Below are positions 527 through 34,983 of a stretch of 36,799 nucleotides of DNA, one piece after another (positions within the stretch are counted from its first letter, which is position 1; every line of letters starts with the position of its first letter). Below the pieces are notes generated by a model. It saw nothing but the letters and a program-made list of their open reading frames with translations, did not search any database and was not told where the DNA came from. The position numbers and the translations under genes were made by a program. Source of the DNA: a virus; the IMG/VR virus record IMGVR_UViG_3300031851_000069, positions 1-36,799 of that record, one strand, 5' to 3'.

Positions 527-832
527 ATGAGTGACGAAGGACAAATGATTTATGACGTTGGTGTACGCCTTGCTTGGAAAAAGAAGCGAGGTAACGGATA
601 CGTCAATATGTATCAAGGTACAAAGGACAGACCCTTTCAGTTTGTTACAAGAGCAAAGTCTCTTGACCATATCAATCGCAATCCAGAAATGATAGCAAAG
701 ATGATGTCGTTTGTAGGAGCAACAGGTAAGAGCGTTTACGATTTCCATATCATAGAAGAGTTCTATCGTAAGGAAATAAGCAATAGCTTTTCACATAAAA
801 AAGAAGATTACATTAAAGAATTTGGCGAATGA
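527..832 (+). CDS. Unknown phage protein (101 aa) upstream of the helicase
   Basis: Soluble protein of mixed charge with no signal peptide or membrane segment and no domain that I can name. Its last codons overlap the start of the helicase gene by four bases (ATGA), so the two are probably translated together. The position suggests a helper of replication, but nothing in the sequence shows that directly. Confidence 0.7.
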   Translation: MSDEGQMIYDVGVRLAWKKKRGNGYVNMYQGTKDRPFQFVTRAKSLDHINRNPEMIAKMMSFVGATGKSVYDFHIIEEFYRKEISNSFSHKKEDYIKEFGE

Positions 833-1815
833 CAACGAGAAATTTTATCTATAGGGCTGAAGAGTTAAAAGATTCTCTAACAGAACTCCGCGAGAACGGA
901 GTAACAAAAGGTGCTTGGACAGGGTTTAGCTCTCTGTTTGATAAGTATTCAATGAAGTTGGGTAGTACCACTTATATATATGCAGGAGCGCATCAAGGGA
1001 AGTCGCAGTTTGCATTTGAAATGATGATGAACCTATCCCAATACTCTGGTTGGAAGTGGGCTGTATACTCCCCAGAAACAGGTTCGCCAACAGAAGTATT
1101 CGCAGAGTTCCTATGGGTGTACCTGCGTAAGCCGTTCCTTGTTAATGATAAGGTTATGGCTACAGATGAAGAGAGCCAAAGGGCTATTGAGTTTATAAAT
1201 GAACATTTCTATATTATAGATAGTGGTCTGCAAGACCTTACCGTAGAAGGTTTCTATAACTGTGTAACAAACATAGAAGAAGATTTTGGGGTTAAGATAC
1301 AGGGCTGTCTCATAGACCCGTTTACAGAGATTAAAACAGATATAAGCGTAGGTGTTCGTGATGACATTGCTATTGGTCAAGTGCTTACAAAAGTCAGAAA
1401 GCATAGTGCGGATAACAATTACCACACACTACTTACCGTACATACTAAACACCAACAACCTAAATATCGTAGTGGTATAGCATATATAGATAAACCTACT
1501 ATGAATGATATAGCAGGTGGTATGCAGTGGAGCCGTAAGGGTATGATGGTTATAAATATATGGCGATGTCCATTTGGATTAGAGGATTTAGATGGCGTAC
1601 CTTATGAACCTAATCAAGTTGAGATTACAGTTGTTAAGGCGAAACCTAAAATCGTAGGTAGGTTAGGAAAGATAACAATGTACTACGACAAGGTTAAGAA
1701 TAGATACTATGAGGTTGATAAGCAGGGCAATCCCTTGTACGCATATCAGAACCCCGATTACGAACCAGAAGAAGTAGCATTGCCTACACCTTCACAAGAG
1801 GAATTAGAATTTTGA
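829..1815 (+). CDS. DnaB-like replicative helicase / RecA-fold ATPase
   Basis: A 328-residue RecA-fold ATPase. The Walker A motif is GAHQGKS at residues 53-59 and the Walker B aspartate is in CLIDPF around residue 163. An HTKH motif near residue 206 sits where DnaB-type helicases carry the H4 region, and a Gly-rich stretch (DIAGGMQWSRKG) follows. It is shorter than host DnaB (about 450 residues) because it lacks the N-terminal primase-interaction domain, as many phage helicases do. It is the only replicative helicase seen and no primase or polymerase gene is visible, so the host probably supplies those. A RadA/Sak4-like role in recombination is the main alternative. Confidence 0.8.
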   Translation: MTTRNFIYRAEELKDSLTELRENGVTKGAWTGFSSLFDKYSMKLGSTTYIYAGAHQGKSQFAFEMMMNLSQYSGWKWAVYSPETGSPTEVFAEFLWVYLRKPFLVNDKVMATDEESQRAIEFINEHFYIIDSGLQDLTVEGFYNCVTNIEEDFGVKIQGCLIDPFTEIKTDISVGVRDDIAIGQVLTKVRKHSADNNYHTLLTVHTKHQQPKYRSGIAYIDKPTMNDIAGGMQWSRKGMMVINIWRCPFGLEDLDGVPYEPNQVEITVVKAKPKIVGRLGKITMYYDKVKNRYYEVDKQGNPLYAYQNPDYEPEEVALPTPSQEELEF

Positions 1816-2376: not shown

Positions 2377-2758
2377 CGAGCAAAATCTCTTTGAACACCT
2401 AAAACAAAATTACATAAGCGACCTTAACTGGTCGGAAGGGGATTACTCACACCACGATTGCTACTCCTTACAACTCAAATGCGACATAGAATTAAAGTGC
2501 CGCAACAAGCATTATGACGGTTTAGTCATAGAGAAATACAAGTACGATAAGCTGCTCGCAAGAGCTGAAAGCCACAATACTATTCCAGTATATATATGCC
2601 AAACACCTAAAGGCATATTCGCATTTAACCTCGCTTCACTTGAAGAACCCTCTTGGGAAACCAAAGGGATGCCGAAGACCTCACACTTTAACCAACGACA
2701 ATTCGTTGACAAGGTGGTGGGGTTTTTGCATATAGATAAATCCAAATCGTATGATTGA
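2360..2758 (+). CDS. PD-(D/E)XK-type nuclease, small
   Basis: The start is the ATG at 2360, giving 132 residues; the frame is open a few codons upstream, but only from a TTG. The core pattern is D33, then CDIELK with E44 and K46, followed by basic residues, which is the D-(X)n-ExK arrangement of restriction-endonuclease-fold enzymes. The gene precedes RusA and overlaps both neighbours, so it sits in a DNA-processing group. Proposed role: cleavage of host or branched DNA. The fold assignment rests on the motif only. Confidence 0.6.
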   Translation: MSWKNNEQNLFEHLKQNYISDLNWSEGDYSHHDCYSLQLKCDIELKCRNKHYDGLVIEKYKYDKLLARAESHNTIPVYICQTPKGIFAFNLASLEEPSWETKGMPKTSHFNQRQFVDKVVGFLHIDKSKSYD

Positions 2759-3101
2759 GATAGACCTTAACTTACCTAAACCCCCAAGTCTTAACGCTTA
2801 TTACGCGGGTAAGCATTGGGCTATTCGTAAAAAACATAAAGATGAGTATTCTAAAAAATGTAAGGAAGAGATTGAGAAGTTTGACTACTTCACTTTTGAA
2901 AGCTATGAAATTCATATTAGCTACAATTCTCGGCACGATGTTGATAATGTTATTCTCGTTTCTAAATTTCTCTCGGATACTCTCGTTAGTATGGGTATGG
3001 TTAAAGACGATGGTAACAAGTATTACAAAAGGCTTAACATCAAGATTGACAAAGACCTTCCGAAAGACACATTCATCGTAAAATTAAGATGTTATGATTA
3101 A
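2751..3101 (+). CDS. rusA: RusA-family Holliday junction resolvase
   Basis: The 116-residue length is normal for RusA. The conserved acidic residues that bind metal are visible: D63 and D65 in DVDN, D76 in KFLSDTL, and D86/D87 in MVKDDG, with the N-terminal signature PKPPSLNAYY. RusA dimers cut four-way junctions symmetrically. In phages they resolve recombination intermediates and branched concatemers before packaging. The gene overlaps both neighbours by about eight bases. Confidence 0.85.
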   Translation: MIEIDLNLPKPPSLNAYYAGKHWAIRKKHKDEYSKKCKEEIEKFDYFTFESYEIHISYNSRHDVDNVILVSKFLSDTLVSMGMVKDDGNKYYKRLNIKIDKDLPKDTFIVKLRCYD

Positions 3102-27184: not shown

Positions 27185-27633
27185 TAAATATCAATATAGT
27201 CCATATCATCATCGTCACTACTTGCTGTAAGGTCAATAGTAGCCTTGACATCTATCTTGGTCTGATGCACCTTCGTAGGTGCTTTATACCCTTGCATATC
27301 ATTAAGAATCTTTATCGCCTCCATAGCAGCTTTATCATCTCCTGCACGCAGTGCTTTGTCTCTGATATTAATTAAAGCCTTAATGTTAGAACCCTTCGCT
27401 GCCTCTATCTGCATACCCTCGGATGCTACAATCTTCATAAGCTCATTATAGAAGGCTGTGCCGATAGTTCTCCTGTCTCGGTAGTAGTTCGTATACTTCA
27501 TCTCGGTAGCTATCTTTGCAGCCTCCTCAAAGCCATACTTCTTTACCTTATCAATAAACTCACTCTGCATATCAGTAAGCTCTGAACCAAGCCCCCTAAC
27601 TACATTGCCATTTGTATCTCTAACACTTGCCAT
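27184..27633 (-). CDS. terS: Terminase small subunit
   Basis: 149 residues. LTDMQSEFIDKVKKYGFEEAAKIATE at 19-44 is the usual DNA-binding helix-turn-helix opening of TerS (LTxxQ..F...G...AA..A), followed by a helical oligomerisation stretch and a flexible acidic C-terminus (SSDDDDMDYIDI). The gene lies directly before terL, overlapping by one base, and marks the head of the packaging genes. Confidence 0.85.
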   Translation of the reverse strand: MASVRDTNGNVVRGLGSELTDMQSEFIDKVKKYGFEEAAKIATEMKYTNYYRDRRTIGTAFYNELMKIVASEGMQIEAAKGSNIKALINIRDKALRAGDDKAAMEAIKILNDMQGYKAPTKVHQTKIDVKATIDLTASSDDDDMDYIDI

Positions 27634-27914
27634 TACTTCACAACTTTGTATAAGGGTATGTTATGTGCGCCCAACCTTCCCATAAACTCCAACTCACTAT
27701 AGGTTGGTGCTTTCTCATCACTATGATACCATTTCCAAATAGAAGTCTTCACTCTCTGGATACAACTTCCACAAGCAGTCTTTGGATTCTCCTGCTTACT
27801 AAAATACTTACTCTTGCCCACCATAGAATTATAGAACTTAAACATCTCCTTCTTCACATCATTCTTCGGTAGACCACCACCTGCTAAAGCTAACATTAAC
27901 TCTTTCTGTGTCAT
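27633..27914 (-). CDS. Small CxxC protein upstream of terS (93 aa)
   Basis: The ATG at 27914 is preferred; a TTG at 27944 would add ten residues. A C48-GS-C51 pair lies in a basic helix (TACGSCIQRVKTSIWKWYH), which suggests a metal site or a disulfide. Similar small proteins are found before terminase genes in other phages, to my knowledge without assigned function. It is the first gene of the virion operon, and the AT-rich palindromes lie upstream. Confidence 0.6.
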   Translation of the reverse strand: MTQKELMLALAGGGLPKNDVKKEMFKFYNSMVGKSKYFSKQENPKTACGSCIQRVKTSIWKWYHSDEKAPTYSELEFMGRLGAHNIPLYKVVK

Positions 27915-27997
27915 AACAATCTTATCGTTTACACTAATATACAATTAGTGAATGATATTTCAATTCATTAAGCATATTATTTTCTCGCGCGTAGTAT

Positions 27998-28036
27998 ACT
28001 AATATATTACTTGTATATATTACTAATATATTAGTA
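27998..28036. repeat. AT-rich palindromes upstream of the virion operon
   Basis: The perfect palindrome TACTAATATATTAGTA occupies 28021-28036, with a near copy ACTAATATATTACT at 27998-28011, 23 bases apart. The core TAATATATTA also lies in the perfect palindrome AGTAATATATTACT at 32123-32136 in front of the DnaA-like gene. Palindromes of this size are typical sites for a dimeric regulator, and shared sites would tie late transcription to the replication region. Confidence 0.55.
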
Positions 28037-28060
28037 GACCTCTAATAAAGAGGTCTACTA
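28032..28060. other. Perfect 12-bp hairpin in the pre-terminase region
   Basis: TAGTAGACCTCT (28032-28043) and AGAGGTCTACTA (28049-28060) form a perfect stem around a five-base loop. There is no T-run, so it is a weak terminator at best. The left arm overlaps the palindrome at 28021-28036. It could be an operator, a replication or packaging signal, or an RNA element in the leader of the virion transcript. Confidence 0.6.
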
Positions 28061-28259
28061 TATTAGTATACTACTACATATACCCATAGGATATAATGCT
28101 ACCCTATGTATTGGCATAGATGTATTTCCCTTCAGCAATGGCTAATGACTATAGCTCTTTTAAGGGTGTTTAGAAGATGTTTAAGAGCGTTTCCGTATAA
28201 AGTGATACCAATGTATAGTAGAAGGTATTTAAGTCTGTTAGAAAGGATGTAATAGATGT

Positions 28260-32106: not shown

Positions 32107-32279
32107 CTTCCTAAACACCCGTAGTAATATATTACTTATATTAGTAATATATATATATTAGAAGTAATATAATAGTAATATATAAGAATATATCTTTAAG
32201 ATATATTCTATATTAGAAATATAATAGAAGAATACTAATATACCCTACTGATATAAGGGTATTTATACAGAAGTATACT
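32107..32279. other. AT-rich palindromic region, candidate replication origin
   Basis: A 173-base non-coding stretch, almost only A and T. It has the perfect 14-bp palindrome AGTAATATATTACT (32123-32136), further AGTAATATA half-sites at 32143, 32163 and 32174, and a 25-base dyad AGAATATATCTT-T-AAGATATATTCT (32185-32209). A 7-bp hairpin ATACCCT/AGGGTAT (32240-32262) follows. It lies directly upstream of a gene with a DnaA-type DNA-binding domain. AT-rich unwinding DNA with repeats next to the initiator gene is the usual layout of an origin, though these are not classical DnaA boxes. It could also be a promoter/operator region. Confidence 0.55.
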
Positions 32280-32804
32280 ATGAAAGAGAAAGATTTTTTA
32301 GACCTGTCGCAAAAGAAGTTAGCCGCAGATGTGTGGGCTAAAATCACAAAGTATAAAGAGATACCATTGAAATCAAGAAAGCGTGAGTATGTCATACACC
32401 GCCATAGCTTTTTAGTAGCGATGCGTAAATACTCTACGATGTCTCTTGATGCTATCGGAACGGTATTAGGTAAAGACCACGCCACAGTAATCCACGCTTG
32501 TAAACAACACGAGATGAATTACAAATTTGATAGGGACTACAAATCTGTGTACTATCAGATAGACAATATCGTAGCCAAGACGATGCTACCTTATAGCTTA
32601 CTGGAGGAACACACCTACGATGAGTTTATGGAGCGTAACAAGGCTGTACGGGAACGCCTTATGAAATTGGCAAGACAAAACAGAGAGTTGATAAGCACTA
32701 ACAACCGCTTAACCCTTGAGAATGAATCTCTAAAGAAGCAGTCAAAGCAAGTTAATAGTGAGATTTCTGCATTAAAAACAAAAATTTCTGGTGTTGCGTG
32801 GTAG
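32280..32804 (+). CDS. DnaA domain IV-like DNA-binding protein with coiled coil (174 aa)
   Basis: Residues 32-92 follow the DnaA C-terminal domain: KSRKREYVIHRHSFLVAMRKY (basic helix), MSLDAIGTVLGKDHATVIHAC with the DHxTVIHA signature at 66-72, and a following helix. Domains I to III, including the AAA+ ATPase, are absent. A coiled coil occupies about 130-170. In host DnaA this domain reads DnaA boxes. Here it probably recognises the AT-rich repeats just upstream or host origin sites. It may be the initiator, or a protein that diverts host DnaA. Start ATG at 32280. Confidence 0.72.
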   Translation: MKEKDFLDLSQKKLAADVWAKITKYKEIPLKSRKREYVIHRHSFLVAMRKYSTMSLDAIGTVLGKDHATVIHACKQHEMNYKFDRDYKSVYYQIDNIVAKTMLPYSLLEEHTYDEFMERNKAVRERLMKLARQNRELISTNNRLTLENESLKKQSKQVNSEISALKTKISGVAW

Positions 32805-32844
32805 TTATTATATAATTTTATCTATATTTGAATAGACAAAGTTG

Positions 32845-32852
32845 TACTTTTG
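32845..32852 (+). promoter_or_regulatory. Bacteroidota-type -7 element before the recombination genes
   Basis: TACTTTTG fits TAnnTTTG. A TTTG lies 14 bases upstream (32827-32830), closer than the usual spacing of about 19, so the -33 element is imperfect. It would start the transcript of the annealing protein and exonuclease with a leader of about 100 bases. Confidence 0.5.
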
Positions 32853-32871
32853 TTTACATTGTTTAAGTAGG

Positions 32872-32927
32872 AGGGGGAGTTTTTCTATTGGTTTTGGTTT
32901 TAAATAGTGCAACGCACTGCTCCCCCT
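32872..32927 (+). promoter_or_regulatory. Structured 5' leader of the annealing-protein gene
   Basis: AGGGGGAG (32872-32879) pairs with CTCCCCCT (32920-32927), and inside the loop AGTGC (32906-32910) pairs with GCACT (32914-32918) around AAC. The structure lies in the leader downstream of the -7 element and 35 bases before the start codon. It may control translation, act as an attenuator, or bind a protein. No ligand class is recognised. Confidence 0.55.
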
Positions 32928-32961
32928 TCAAACAATTTTAGTAACTAATTAAAGTTTATAT

Positions 32962-33495
32962 ATGAGTCGTTATCAGTTTAAGACCACCAACATCAAAGGA
33001 AAAGAATATGTTGAGGTCAATCAAAGAATCAAATACTTCCGTGAAAGCGGACAATACGAAGGTTGGTCTCTGACCTCTGACGTATATCATTTAGATGAAG
33101 TATCTTGTGTAATCAAGGCTTCTGTACTCAACGATAAAGGAGATATAGTAGCCACAGGTTTTGCTCAAGAGGATAAGTCCAGTAGCTACATAAACAAAAC
33201 AAGCTATGTGGAAAACTGTGAAACAAGTGCTTGGGGCCGTGCATTGGCTAATCTTGGTATTGGGATTGATACTTCTATTGCGAGTTCAAACGAGGTTTCA
33301 ATGGCTATCTCAAAACAAGGAAGTAAACCTAAAGCTGCGGTTAAGGCAACTGCTAAAGTGAGTCTATTAGAACTTACTGATGAAATCAAATCAAAGATGG
33401 TTAAGGCTGTCAAAGATGGTAAGAAAGATGCAGTAGTTAAAGCACTGGATAAGTACGAGCTAACAGCAGCACAGCGTAATGAGATTCTTGCGTAA
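32962..33495 (+). CDS. Probable single-strand annealing / recombination protein (177 aa)
   Basis: Residues 14-110 have a pattern that I know from phage recombination operons: KEYVEVNQRIKYFRE, ASVLNDKGDIVATGFAQE, and INKTSYVENCETSAWGRALANLGIGID then SIASSNEV. It resembles Erf/Rad52-type annealing proteins. The direct downstream neighbour is a RecE/RecB-type exonuclease, overlapping by one base, the standard pair of the exonuclease-annealase system. The C-terminal 50 residues are Lys-rich with a short helical domain. Assignment is moderate because the family is divergent. Confidence 0.6.
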   Translation: MSRYQFKTTNIKGKEYVEVNQRIKYFRESGQYEGWSLTSDVYHLDEVSCVIKASVLNDKGDIVATGFAQEDKSSSYINKTSYVENCETSAWGRALANLGIGIDTSIASSNEVSMAISKQGSKPKAAVKATAKVSLLELTDEIKSKMVKAVKDGKKDAVVKALDKYELTAAQRNEILA

Positions 33496-34253
33496 TGACT
33501 GATTTAGAAAGATTCAAGGACGATGAAGCGTACTACTCGGACAAATCTTATATGTCCAATAGTGCCTTCAAACTCCTGCGCCAATCACCAACAAAGTTCC
33601 ACCTTTGGAAGCAAGGTAAGTGGAGTTACCCTTCTACCTCATTCTTTGATGTAGGTACTGCACTACACGCTCTATTCCTTGAGGATAAAGAAGTAGCTGT
33701 AAGATGGGAAGGAACTCGTAGAGGCAACGCTTATAAAGAGTTTAAGATGGAACACGAAGGCAAACTTGTGCTGCCCGAAAAGGATTATGATTTAGTCTAT
33801 GGTATGTACGATAAGCTGCTTAAAGTTCCAGAGGTAAACGATATTATGGGAATAGAAGCCAAGCCCGAAGTTGCAGGTATAAAAACATTTGTAACGGAAA
33901 GCGGAAACGAGATTGCAGTAAAAGGTAAAGCTGATGCAATAGTGTTTGATGGCGAGAAGAACTATATCGTAGACCTAAAGACCACCGCTAAATCACTTGA
34001 GGATTTTAAGAAGTCAGCGAGATTTATGCTGTACAATCAACAAGCCTATCTCTACAAGACTATCTTTGGAATGGACGATTTCTATTTCCTCGTAGTGGAA
34101 AAGGTGTTCCCATATGAGGTGGGTATATTTAAAGCCTCTGATGACTTCCTACACTGGGGAGAAGTAGAGTTGAATACAAGTATTAATGTTTACGAAAAAA
34201 GATTTTTAAATGAGCAATTCAGACCTTACAGCGCAATGGTTGGAGAACTGTAA
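33495..34253 (+). CDS. RecE/RecB-like PD-(D/E)XK exonuclease (252 aa)
   Basis: Motifs in order: GTALHAL with H58, then E121/E125 in IEAKPE, D147 in GKADAIV, D160 and K162 in VDLKT, and the QxxxY motif NQQAYLY at 181-187. This is the lambda/RecE/Cas4-like nuclease fold (DUF3799/exonuclease VIII type). It would chew 5' ends to expose single strands for the annealing protein. The start overlaps the upstream stop by one base. Confidence 0.8.
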   Translation: MTDLERFKDDEAYYSDKSYMSNSAFKLLRQSPTKFHLWKQGKWSYPSTSFFDVGTALHALFLEDKEVAVRWEGTRRGNAYKEFKMEHEGKLVLPEKDYDLVYGMYDKLLKVPEVNDIMGIEAKPEVAGIKTFVTESGNEIAVKGKADAIVFDGEKNYIVDLKTTAKSLEDFKKSARFMLYNQQAYLYKTIFGMDDFYFLVVEKVFPYEVGIFKASDDFLHWGEVELNTSINVYEKRFLNEQFRPYSAMVGEL

Positions 34254-34641
34254 CCACTTTGAAAAGATGGTGGTACTCAATGCAGTAGACGTAACAGGAG
34301 TAGATAAAGAGCATTTCTACACTGGTCGTAGGTTTCCTATCGTAGTGAGAACCAGAGCGTTGATAGCAAGAGTCCTCCGTGATTCACATTACACGATGAA
34401 GAACATCGCAAGTGTATTGAAGATTACCGCAGAGATGGCAGCTAACTACTGCACGGCAAACCATAACGAGTACCTTCAAAAAAATCCAGACTATGAGGGT
34501 ATGTACAATCGTTTGACAAATGCGATAGAGCAAGTCCACAGCAGCGACAATGGCGTTGAACAACGTCTATCAGATGTGGAAATTGAGATGAGTAGAATGA
34601 AACAAAGAGTAGACCACCTCTCCAAACTGGTCGTAGAGTAA
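34210..34641 (+). CDS. Divergent DnaA domain IV-like protein with C-terminal coiled coil (143 aa)
   Basis: Residues 38-100 align with the DnaA-like part of the 174-residue protein: RRFPIVVRTRALIARVLRDSHYTM, IASVLKITAEMAANYCTANHNEYL, PDYEGMYNRL. The helix-turn-helix is retained in spacing, but the DHxTV signature has changed to TAEMA. A coiled coil occupies residues about 110-140. It overlaps the exonuclease gene by 44 bases. It is likely an old duplicate with changed DNA specificity, or a partner of the first protein. Confidence 0.6.
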   Translation: MSNSDLTAQWLENCNHFEKMVVLNAVDVTGVDKEHFYTGRRFPIVVRTRALIARVLRDSHYTMKNIASVLKITAEMAANYCTANHNEYLQKNPDYEGMYNRLTNAIEQVHSSDNGVEQRLSDVEIEMSRMKQRVDHLSKLVVE

Positions 34642-34670: not shown

Positions 34671-34907
34671 ATGACTGAAAAGAAATTTGTAGGAAGTACG
34701 CGTGTAAAGACCACGAAGTACGGACAGATTATCAATCTTGGGCTGAAAGCTTCAGACCTTGAAACACTAAAGGCTAACCTCAATGATAGAGGTTGGGTAA
34801 ACATTGACCTCAAGTCTAAAAAAGACGGTGGTTTTTATGCAGAGATTCCTACGATGGATTTCAAAGGAGCTGCTGCAACTAATGCACAAGATGACGACTT
34901 GTTCTAA
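34671..34907 (+). CDS. Small protein with SSB-like acidic tail (78 aa)
   Basis: Begins with a basic strand pattern (FVGSTRVKTTKYGQIINLGLK), then a helix and strands (WVNIDLKSKKDGGFYAEIP), and ends DDDLF, like the acidic C-terminal tip with which SSB proteins recruit partners. The size is too small for a normal OB-fold SSB, but the end and the recombination neighbours suggest a single-strand-binding or partner-recruiting role. The start lies 29 bases after the preceding stop. Confidence 0.55.
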   Translation: MTEKKFVGSTRVKTTKYGQIINLGLKASDLETLKANLNDRGWVNIDLKSKKDGGFYAEIPTMDFKGAAATNAQDDDLF

Positions 34908-34915
34908 AACGTTAA

Positions 34916-34983
34916 AGGGGAAAAGGAAATAGCTTTACTGGGGAGTAGGTTAATAGGGGGGTTCAATTCCCCCCTCCCCTCCA
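34916..34983 (+). ncRNA. tRNA-like hairpin element
   Basis: GGGGGG-TTCAATT-CCCCCC (34956-34974) has exactly the length and loop of a tRNA T-arm. The next bases TCCCCT can pair with AGGGGA (34916-34921) as an acceptor stem, and CCA follows at 34981-34983. Only about 34 bases lie between, too few for normal D and anticodon arms, and I see no anticodon loop, so it is not a functional tRNA. It may be a decayed tRNA, a small structured RNA or an attachment-site-like remnant. Confidence 0.35.

Follow-up and report, generated by a model that had tools for sequence, protein, structure and literature searches.

The function of one stand-alone homologue of DnaA domain IV is known from Caulobacter, where GafY (= HdaB) interacts with RpoD and binds DNA both in front of its own genes, gafYZ, and in front of the main gene transfer agent (GTA) cluster (PMC9632790, PMC11150451). 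Its partner GafZ, which has a sigma-like helix-turn-helix (HTH), is an anti-terminator (PMC9632790, PMC11150451), and Rhodobacter GafA, in which both proteins are fused, contacts the omega subunit (PMC9638019). An early report, cited in PMC9632790, described an effect of overexpressed HdaB on chromosome replication, which the GTA authors later reinterpreted as GTA activation (PMC9632790).

Stand-alone DnaA C-terminal-domain proteins are also found in phages, including Flavobacterium phage mumin (gp028), Olleya phage Harreka_1 (gp24, which adjoins an SSB gene and lies a few genes from RecE/Erf), Tenacibaculum phage Gundel_1 and uncultured Caudovirales. In phage genomes, single stand-alone domain-IV proteins are often annotated, widely as 'replication initiator' without tests, and the literature searched contained no functional test of these proteins. 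In lambda O-type initiators, a DNA-binding domain is joined to an interaction tail, and the origin iterons lie inside the initiator gene.

Genome and features of the window

We analysed a stretch of 36,799 bases from an IMG/VR virus record, referred to as a whole as the window. The DNA is that of a tailed phage. Besides a gene for the large terminase subunit, it carries portal, capsid and tail-type genes, which lie on the minus strand; the plus strand holds the genes of DNA metabolism (Table 1). Two of the latter encode the DnaA-like proteins that we call P1 and P2. The phage is uncultured, and its host is probably a member of the Bacteroidota, as suggested by the lack of Shine-Dalgarno-like sequences before P1 and P2 together with the presence of TAnnTTTG-like elements. 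A terminase search for the host among bacterial genomes gave distant matches only (22–30% identity), and the phage family has no close cultured member, with terminase identities below 27% among the matches listed.

Table 1. Features of the window, in bases counted from its first position.
Feature	Position	Strand	Description
DnaB/primase-helicase-like gene	829-1815		phrog_5482, primase/helicase relatives
RusA-like resolvase	2751-3101		DNA-metabolism neighbour set
First gene of terminase/structural operon	27633-27944	-	
Late control region	27997-28068	-	Early-region repeats around hairpin 28033-28059, upstream of terminase/structural operon
Early control region	32122-32262	.	Palindromic AT-rich repeats TATTAGTAATATA, AGTAATATATTACT, TACTAATATA, directly upstream of P1
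P1, 174 aa	32280-32804	+	DnaA domain-IV-like DNA-binding domain (~residues 13-102) and long C-terminal helix (110-172)
Single-strand annealing protein-like (annealase), 177 aa	32962-33495	+	phrog_11717, E 8e-36; one relative annotated mgM101-like
RecE-like (exonuclease VIII) exonuclease, 252 aa	33495-34253	+	phrog_412, E 8e-38; Pfam DUF3799, PDDEXK_1
P2, 143 aa	34210-34641	+	Diverged DnaA domain-IV-like domain (~residues 16-111) and C-terminal helix (114-142)
Conserved 78-aa protein	34671-34907	+	Ends in SSB-like acidic tip, DDDLF; closes the conserved block as far as seen

Domain identity of P1 and P2

The initial annotation of the window had placed two stand-alone DnaA domain IV-like proteins without an ATPase around the recombination genes, and this arrangement proved correct, including the positions of the reading frames. 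Its description of P1, as having a DHATVIHAC signature and a predicted coiled coil with no AAA+ domain, was likewise borne out. Bac_DnaA_C (PF08299) matched residues 25–76 of P1 with an E value of 2.3e-12 (47.2 bits, against a curated cut-off of 31.5), no AAA+ profile of Pfam matched, and the AlphaFold model (pLDDT 92), with a predicted helix at 110–172, consisted of an HTH domain and the C-terminal helix only. The recognition helix is of the DnaA type (KDHATVIHAC), with the signature D-H-(T/A)-T-V-x-H, and P1 keeps equivalents of DnaA R399, D433, H434 and T436 (assigned after Fujikawa et al., as cited in PMC9638019). Across the P1 family, the equivalents of E. coli R399 and T435 (Ala in P1) are nearly invariant, and the last stretch of P1 (KISSIAW-like) is kept within the window's clade. 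The long terminal helices of P1 and of P2 are each predicted to form a coiled coil.

P2 is a more distant case. As a single query it had no DnaA match in Pfam or PHROGs and no match of any kind by phage tblastn, it fell below the Pfam threshold for Bac_DnaA_C on its own, and BLASTP of P1 against P2 gave no match; the kinship is seen only through family profiles and structure. PF08299 matched 23 of 26 P2 relatives at E values up to 0.1 (best 1.7e-8), and hhalign of the P1 family against the P2 family (n=26) gave an E value of 2.8e-11. A profile built from P2 proteins alone, run against 6,693 ORFs and an equal number of reversed decoys, found the proteins at the P1 position as well as DnaA proteins, the best of these matches being the DnaA-like protein of phage mumin (3e-10), while none of the decoys scored at E<10; the reciprocal search with a P1-only profile had the same outcome in reverse. 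The AlphaFold model of P2 (pLDDT 78) also contained an HTH domain and C-terminal helix only, with no AAA+ part. A structural comparison with DnaA, which the initial annotation had suggested, placed the DnaA DNA-binding domain at the top of the solved structures for both models, with VIA-align Z scores to 3pvp of 10.9 for P1 and 12.6 for P2; P2 also scored 11.9 with 1j1v, and its next unrelated fold only 4.9. Judged by these profiles and models, P2 is a true relative of domain IV.

The initial annotation had regarded P2 as a relative that had lost the signature. Both the kinship and the absence of a DHATVIHAC-type signature stand, but P2 relatives keep a different recognition-helix sequence (NTDPKGVHTYIHSHDNRMAD, GVSQRMAYEYIHSHENRMAD or, in the window, KITAEMAANYCTANH), indicating that P2 is diverged rather than decayed. 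A heptad-like end, YEHLKELL or VNHLSKLI, is common to the P2 families. From the sequences of their helices, P1 and P2 would read DNA differently. Compared to bacterial DnaA domain IV (1j1v, 3pvp), the two proteins share the fold of the DNA-binding domain, and P1 shares the contact-residue equivalents, whereas the AAA+ domain is missing from both and the recognition helix of P2 is different.

Gene order in related phages

Viral contigs were scanned with the annealase and exonuclease, yielding ~100 loci, in most of which the annealase is preceded by a DnaA-like ORF and the exonuclease followed by a P2-like one. The full order P1-annealase-exonuclease-P2 was present in 66 of ~110 contigs, representing an uncultured phage family, so that the co-occurrence of the pair in other phages, raised by the initial annotation as a point to check, is well documented. 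The window and all long relatives have two DnaA-IV proteins each, the second of G009 being cut at the contig end. However, 14 contigs of another subgroup had annealase-exonuclease loci with no DnaA-like genes nearby, indicating that the twin arrangement is a trait of the lineage and not a rule for recombination genes of this kind. The stand-alone DnaA-C proteins of other phages consist of the same domain alone and are similar in size, but Harreka_1 and mumin have one copy, which does not flank an annealase and exonuclease, in contrast to the two copies here.

In the window, the P2 gene overlaps the exonuclease gene by 44 bp. The 78-aa protein at the end of the block had no match in Pfam, and its acidic tip was kept in all 19 relatives read (DDMPF, DDLPF, DDFPF or similar), making it a candidate ssDNA-binding protein or mimic of the SSB tip. 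The gap between P1 and the annealase (32805-32961, + strand) contains a strong hairpin (z -2.8) and is a structured element in the wider clade of the window. It starts with the promoter-like sequence TATATTTG, and in relatives a loop may form pairs, with changes that compensate each other (CGGAG/CTCCG, CGAGG/CCTCG, CGGGC/GCCCG).

In 36 of the 66 twin contigs, the operon is headed by a sigma-70 region-4-like gene located before P1, which overlaps the P1 reading frame by ~140–210 bases in another frame. Sigma70_r4 was matched by 7 of the 13 sigma-like proteins examined, and DUF6456, the GafZ family, was not among the families that they matched. Two examples (L055:1605-2303 and L042:3947-4660) end within P1 and keep both ends, including an AMSFLYS tail. 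The window and its clade have no sigma-like gene. A small ORF upstream of P1 (31921-32103, + strand) has a DDDYQYYKW motif. Related motifs (DDEYxYxxW) are found in the equivalent small ORFs of relatives and are similar to DDEYNxYL, a segment of the sigma-like proteins; the small ORF is possibly a remnant.

Repeats at two control regions

The AT-rich DNA upstream of P1 carries repeats of TAGTAATATA, and has hairpins at 32185-32209 and 32240-32262. The palindrome TATTAGTAATATA had 13 matches in the window at up to two mismatches, compared to 3.6 expected, a number never reached in 100 shuffles, and 11 of the 13 fell into two clusters, one upstream of the terminase operon (28003-28030) and one upstream of P1 (32128-32223). 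Early and late clusters of clade-specific palindromic repeats were present in all ten longer genomes compared (the window and nine relatives). The palindrome was TATACTTAGTATA in G001 and G003, ATAGTATACTAT in G008 and G017, and TACTATTATAATA in G007, G009, G010, G011 and G013. G006/L123, in which the interval set close to the terminase gene had no late cluster, is outside the ten-genome count. The early cluster lies at the head of the P1 operon, in front of the sigma-like gene where there is one, and the late cluster before the late operon. G011 has one further pair of sites, and a third repeat cluster was seen in the G009 contig (9988-10030), away from both operon heads.

The early and late regions of a single genome had 15–33 nine-mers in common, exceeding all 500 shuffles of equal dinucleotide make-up for each genome. 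For the early region of the window, the number in common was 30 with the late region of the same genome and no more than 9 with that of any other, and the between-genome matrix fell into blocks by motif class. The repeats track P1 and P2: the repeat spectrum of the early regions correlated with P1 (Mantel r 0.74) and P2 (0.78), and at 0.20 with the annealase. Because the correlation of this control is so low, the partial Mantel test says little against common descent. The annealase serves poorly as a control, and shared ancestry confounds the co-variation of repeats and proteins.

The AT-rich iterons and the hairpin immediately before P1 also fit a replication origin, which P1, with P2, would melt or mark as the initiator of the phage. 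The coiled coil would then load the DnaB-like helicase of the phage, and the second cluster would be a second origin or an enhancer. Domain IV is an origin-binding domain in DnaA, the proteins searched included no other recognisable initiator, and the neighbouring genes of DNA metabolism (annealase, exonuclease, SSB-tip protein, DnaB/primase-helicase-like and RusA-like) are in keeping with such a role. The arrangement is also similar to that of lambda O, in that a DNA-binding domain with a tail is encoded near AT-rich iterons in a replication region, although lambda O has another DNA-binding fold, and the iterons here are located upstream of P1 and again at the late operon. We nevertheless consider an initiator, the chief alternative to transcriptional control, rather unlikely. 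It leaves the second cluster unexplained, the same repeats being found at the head of the late operon in all ten genomes, and where a sigma-like gene is present the repeats are upstream of that gene and not beside P1. P1 and P2 have no loader or AAA+ part, and the changes of GC skew in the window go with gene direction and mark no origin.

Canonical DnaA boxes were not clustered in the window, where 5 matches to TTWTNCACA were scattered over 36.8 kb, and by its sequence the clade-specific repeat is not a DnaA box. This bears on the proposal of the initial annotation that the two proteins recruit host DnaA or helicase to the phage origin, or occupy the DnaA boxes of the host oriC and so stop host replication, in which case P1 would bind boxes of the TTATCCACA type. 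KDHATVIHAC, the DnaA-box signature of DnaA-type sequences, is indeed kept in P1, and the first report on HdaB pointed in the same direction. However, that report has since been reinterpreted, the phage offers no cluster of boxes, P2 does not have the DnaA-box residues, and domains I and III, through which DnaA oligomers or helicase could be contacted, are missing from both proteins. The palindromes that track P1 and P2 are also found upstream of the terminase operon, which favours transcriptional control over a role involving host DnaA, and we now regard this proposal as very improbable.

Each control region has a hairpin, and its stem varies in sequence while pairing is kept, with 25 distinct stems in 34 early regions. 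Such conservation of pairing might be expected of recombination or concatemer-processing sites, and it is conceivable that P1 and P2 assist the annealase-exonuclease pair as accessory factors, directing recombination-dependent replication, or packaging, to these defined sites. The strict flanking of annealase and exonuclease by P1 and P2 in the 66 contigs, and the presence in each genome of two elements combining a cluster with a hairpin, one of them beside the terminase genes, would agree with this. We judge it improbable, however, as both elements are positioned just upstream of operon heads, where promoters are expected, the late element is followed by a promoter-like block, and half of the contigs have a sigma-like gene in the same operon.

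The promoter-like block is a conserved sequence, TGAAT..ATTCA..TTGTANATT, located downstream of the late cluster and before the first late gene, and it looks like a promoter. TTGTANATT alone occurred 8 times in the window, not far above a rough expectation of ~4, and its weight derives from position and conservation rather than from the count. A further sequence, TTGTA(A/T)ATT(AA), occurs shortly upstream of the late-gene starts at 27944, 25229, 17946, 16106, 14585 and 7290 (- strand) and of the same genes in relatives, and is a candidate late promoter or translation signal.

A possible switch of early and late transcription

Our preferred interpretation, for which we estimate a probability of roughly 0.5, is that P1 and P2 are transcription regulators that would control the early and late operons of the phage. 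Each would combine a box-reading domain IV with a C-terminal coiled coil for association with itself or a partner, and one or both may bind the clade-specific palindromic AT-rich repeats, probably as dimers. The putative targets are two operon heads, that of the operon encoding them (P1, annealase, exonuclease, P2 and the SSB-tip protein) and that of the terminase/structural operon. P1 and P2 would autoregulate the early recombination operon, and would activate the late genes or set their timing, as GafY and GafA do in GTAs. We infer binding and dimerisation, and likewise the direction of regulation, the division of labour between P1 and P2 and the role of the hairpins.

Transcriptional control is the simplest reading of repeats that stand at two operon heads, one of which belongs to the operon of the DNA-binding proteins themselves. 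It is further supported by the occurrence of domain IV in both proteins, by the twin order in 66 contigs, by the two clusters in 10 of 10 genomes, by the nine-mers common to the early and late regions of one genome, by the tracking of P1 and P2 by the repeats, by the promoter-like block downstream of the late cluster, and by the sigma-like gene that heads the operon in 36 contigs, recalling GafY with sigma-like GafZ. Several observations argue against it. P1 keeps the residues that contact a DnaA box, which the repeats are not, an origin would equally have iterons next to an initiator-like gene, the clade of the window does without a sigma-like gene, and the hairpins within clusters and the third cluster of G009 are unexplained.

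Relationship to known systems

The locus resembles the GafY/GafZ system in several respects. Both have a small DnaA domain-IV protein without AAA+, both have an adjacent sigma-like HTH gene (here in 36 relatives), and the binding of GafY upstream of its own and the packaging/structural operon is paralleled by matching repeats, which are putative target sites, in the ten genomes. In contrast to GafY/GafZ, two DnaA-IV proteins flank an annealase and exonuclease, the repeats take the form of palindromic AT-rich iterons accompanied by a hairpin, the window's clade has no sigma-like gene, and the carriers are uncultured phages rather than alphaproteobacterial GTAs. Because the sigma-like proteins of the relatives do not match the family model of GafZ (DUF6456), we do not file the twin system as GafYZ. 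More tentatively, and at somewhat less than even odds, we suggest that a two-protein DnaA-IV switch with an optional sigma-like partner, and with repeat-hairpin elements that co-evolve with the proteins across the whole phage family, constitutes a GafYZ-type module outside GTAs, hinting that GafY-like regulators descend from phage regulators.

The initial annotation knew of no described system of this form. This is too broad for the single proteins, since GafY/HdaB is known and single DnaA-C proteins are common in phages, but we found no description of the twin operon with its two-site repeats in the literature searched. The twin family offers natural sequence evidence for a role other than initiation, the timing of early and late phage transcription. 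If this is true, the GafY-type activator would extend from alphaproteobacterial GTAs to a phage lineage, automatic annotation as 'DnaA' would call for caution, and the exact DNA sites given here could be used in a binding test.

Downstream of the conserved block, a short sequence at 34957-34983 (+ strand) resembles the T-arm/3' end of a tmRNA, at an Rfam E value of 0.002. A complete tRNA or tmRNA is lacking, and the sequence is a possible remnant of an attachment site.
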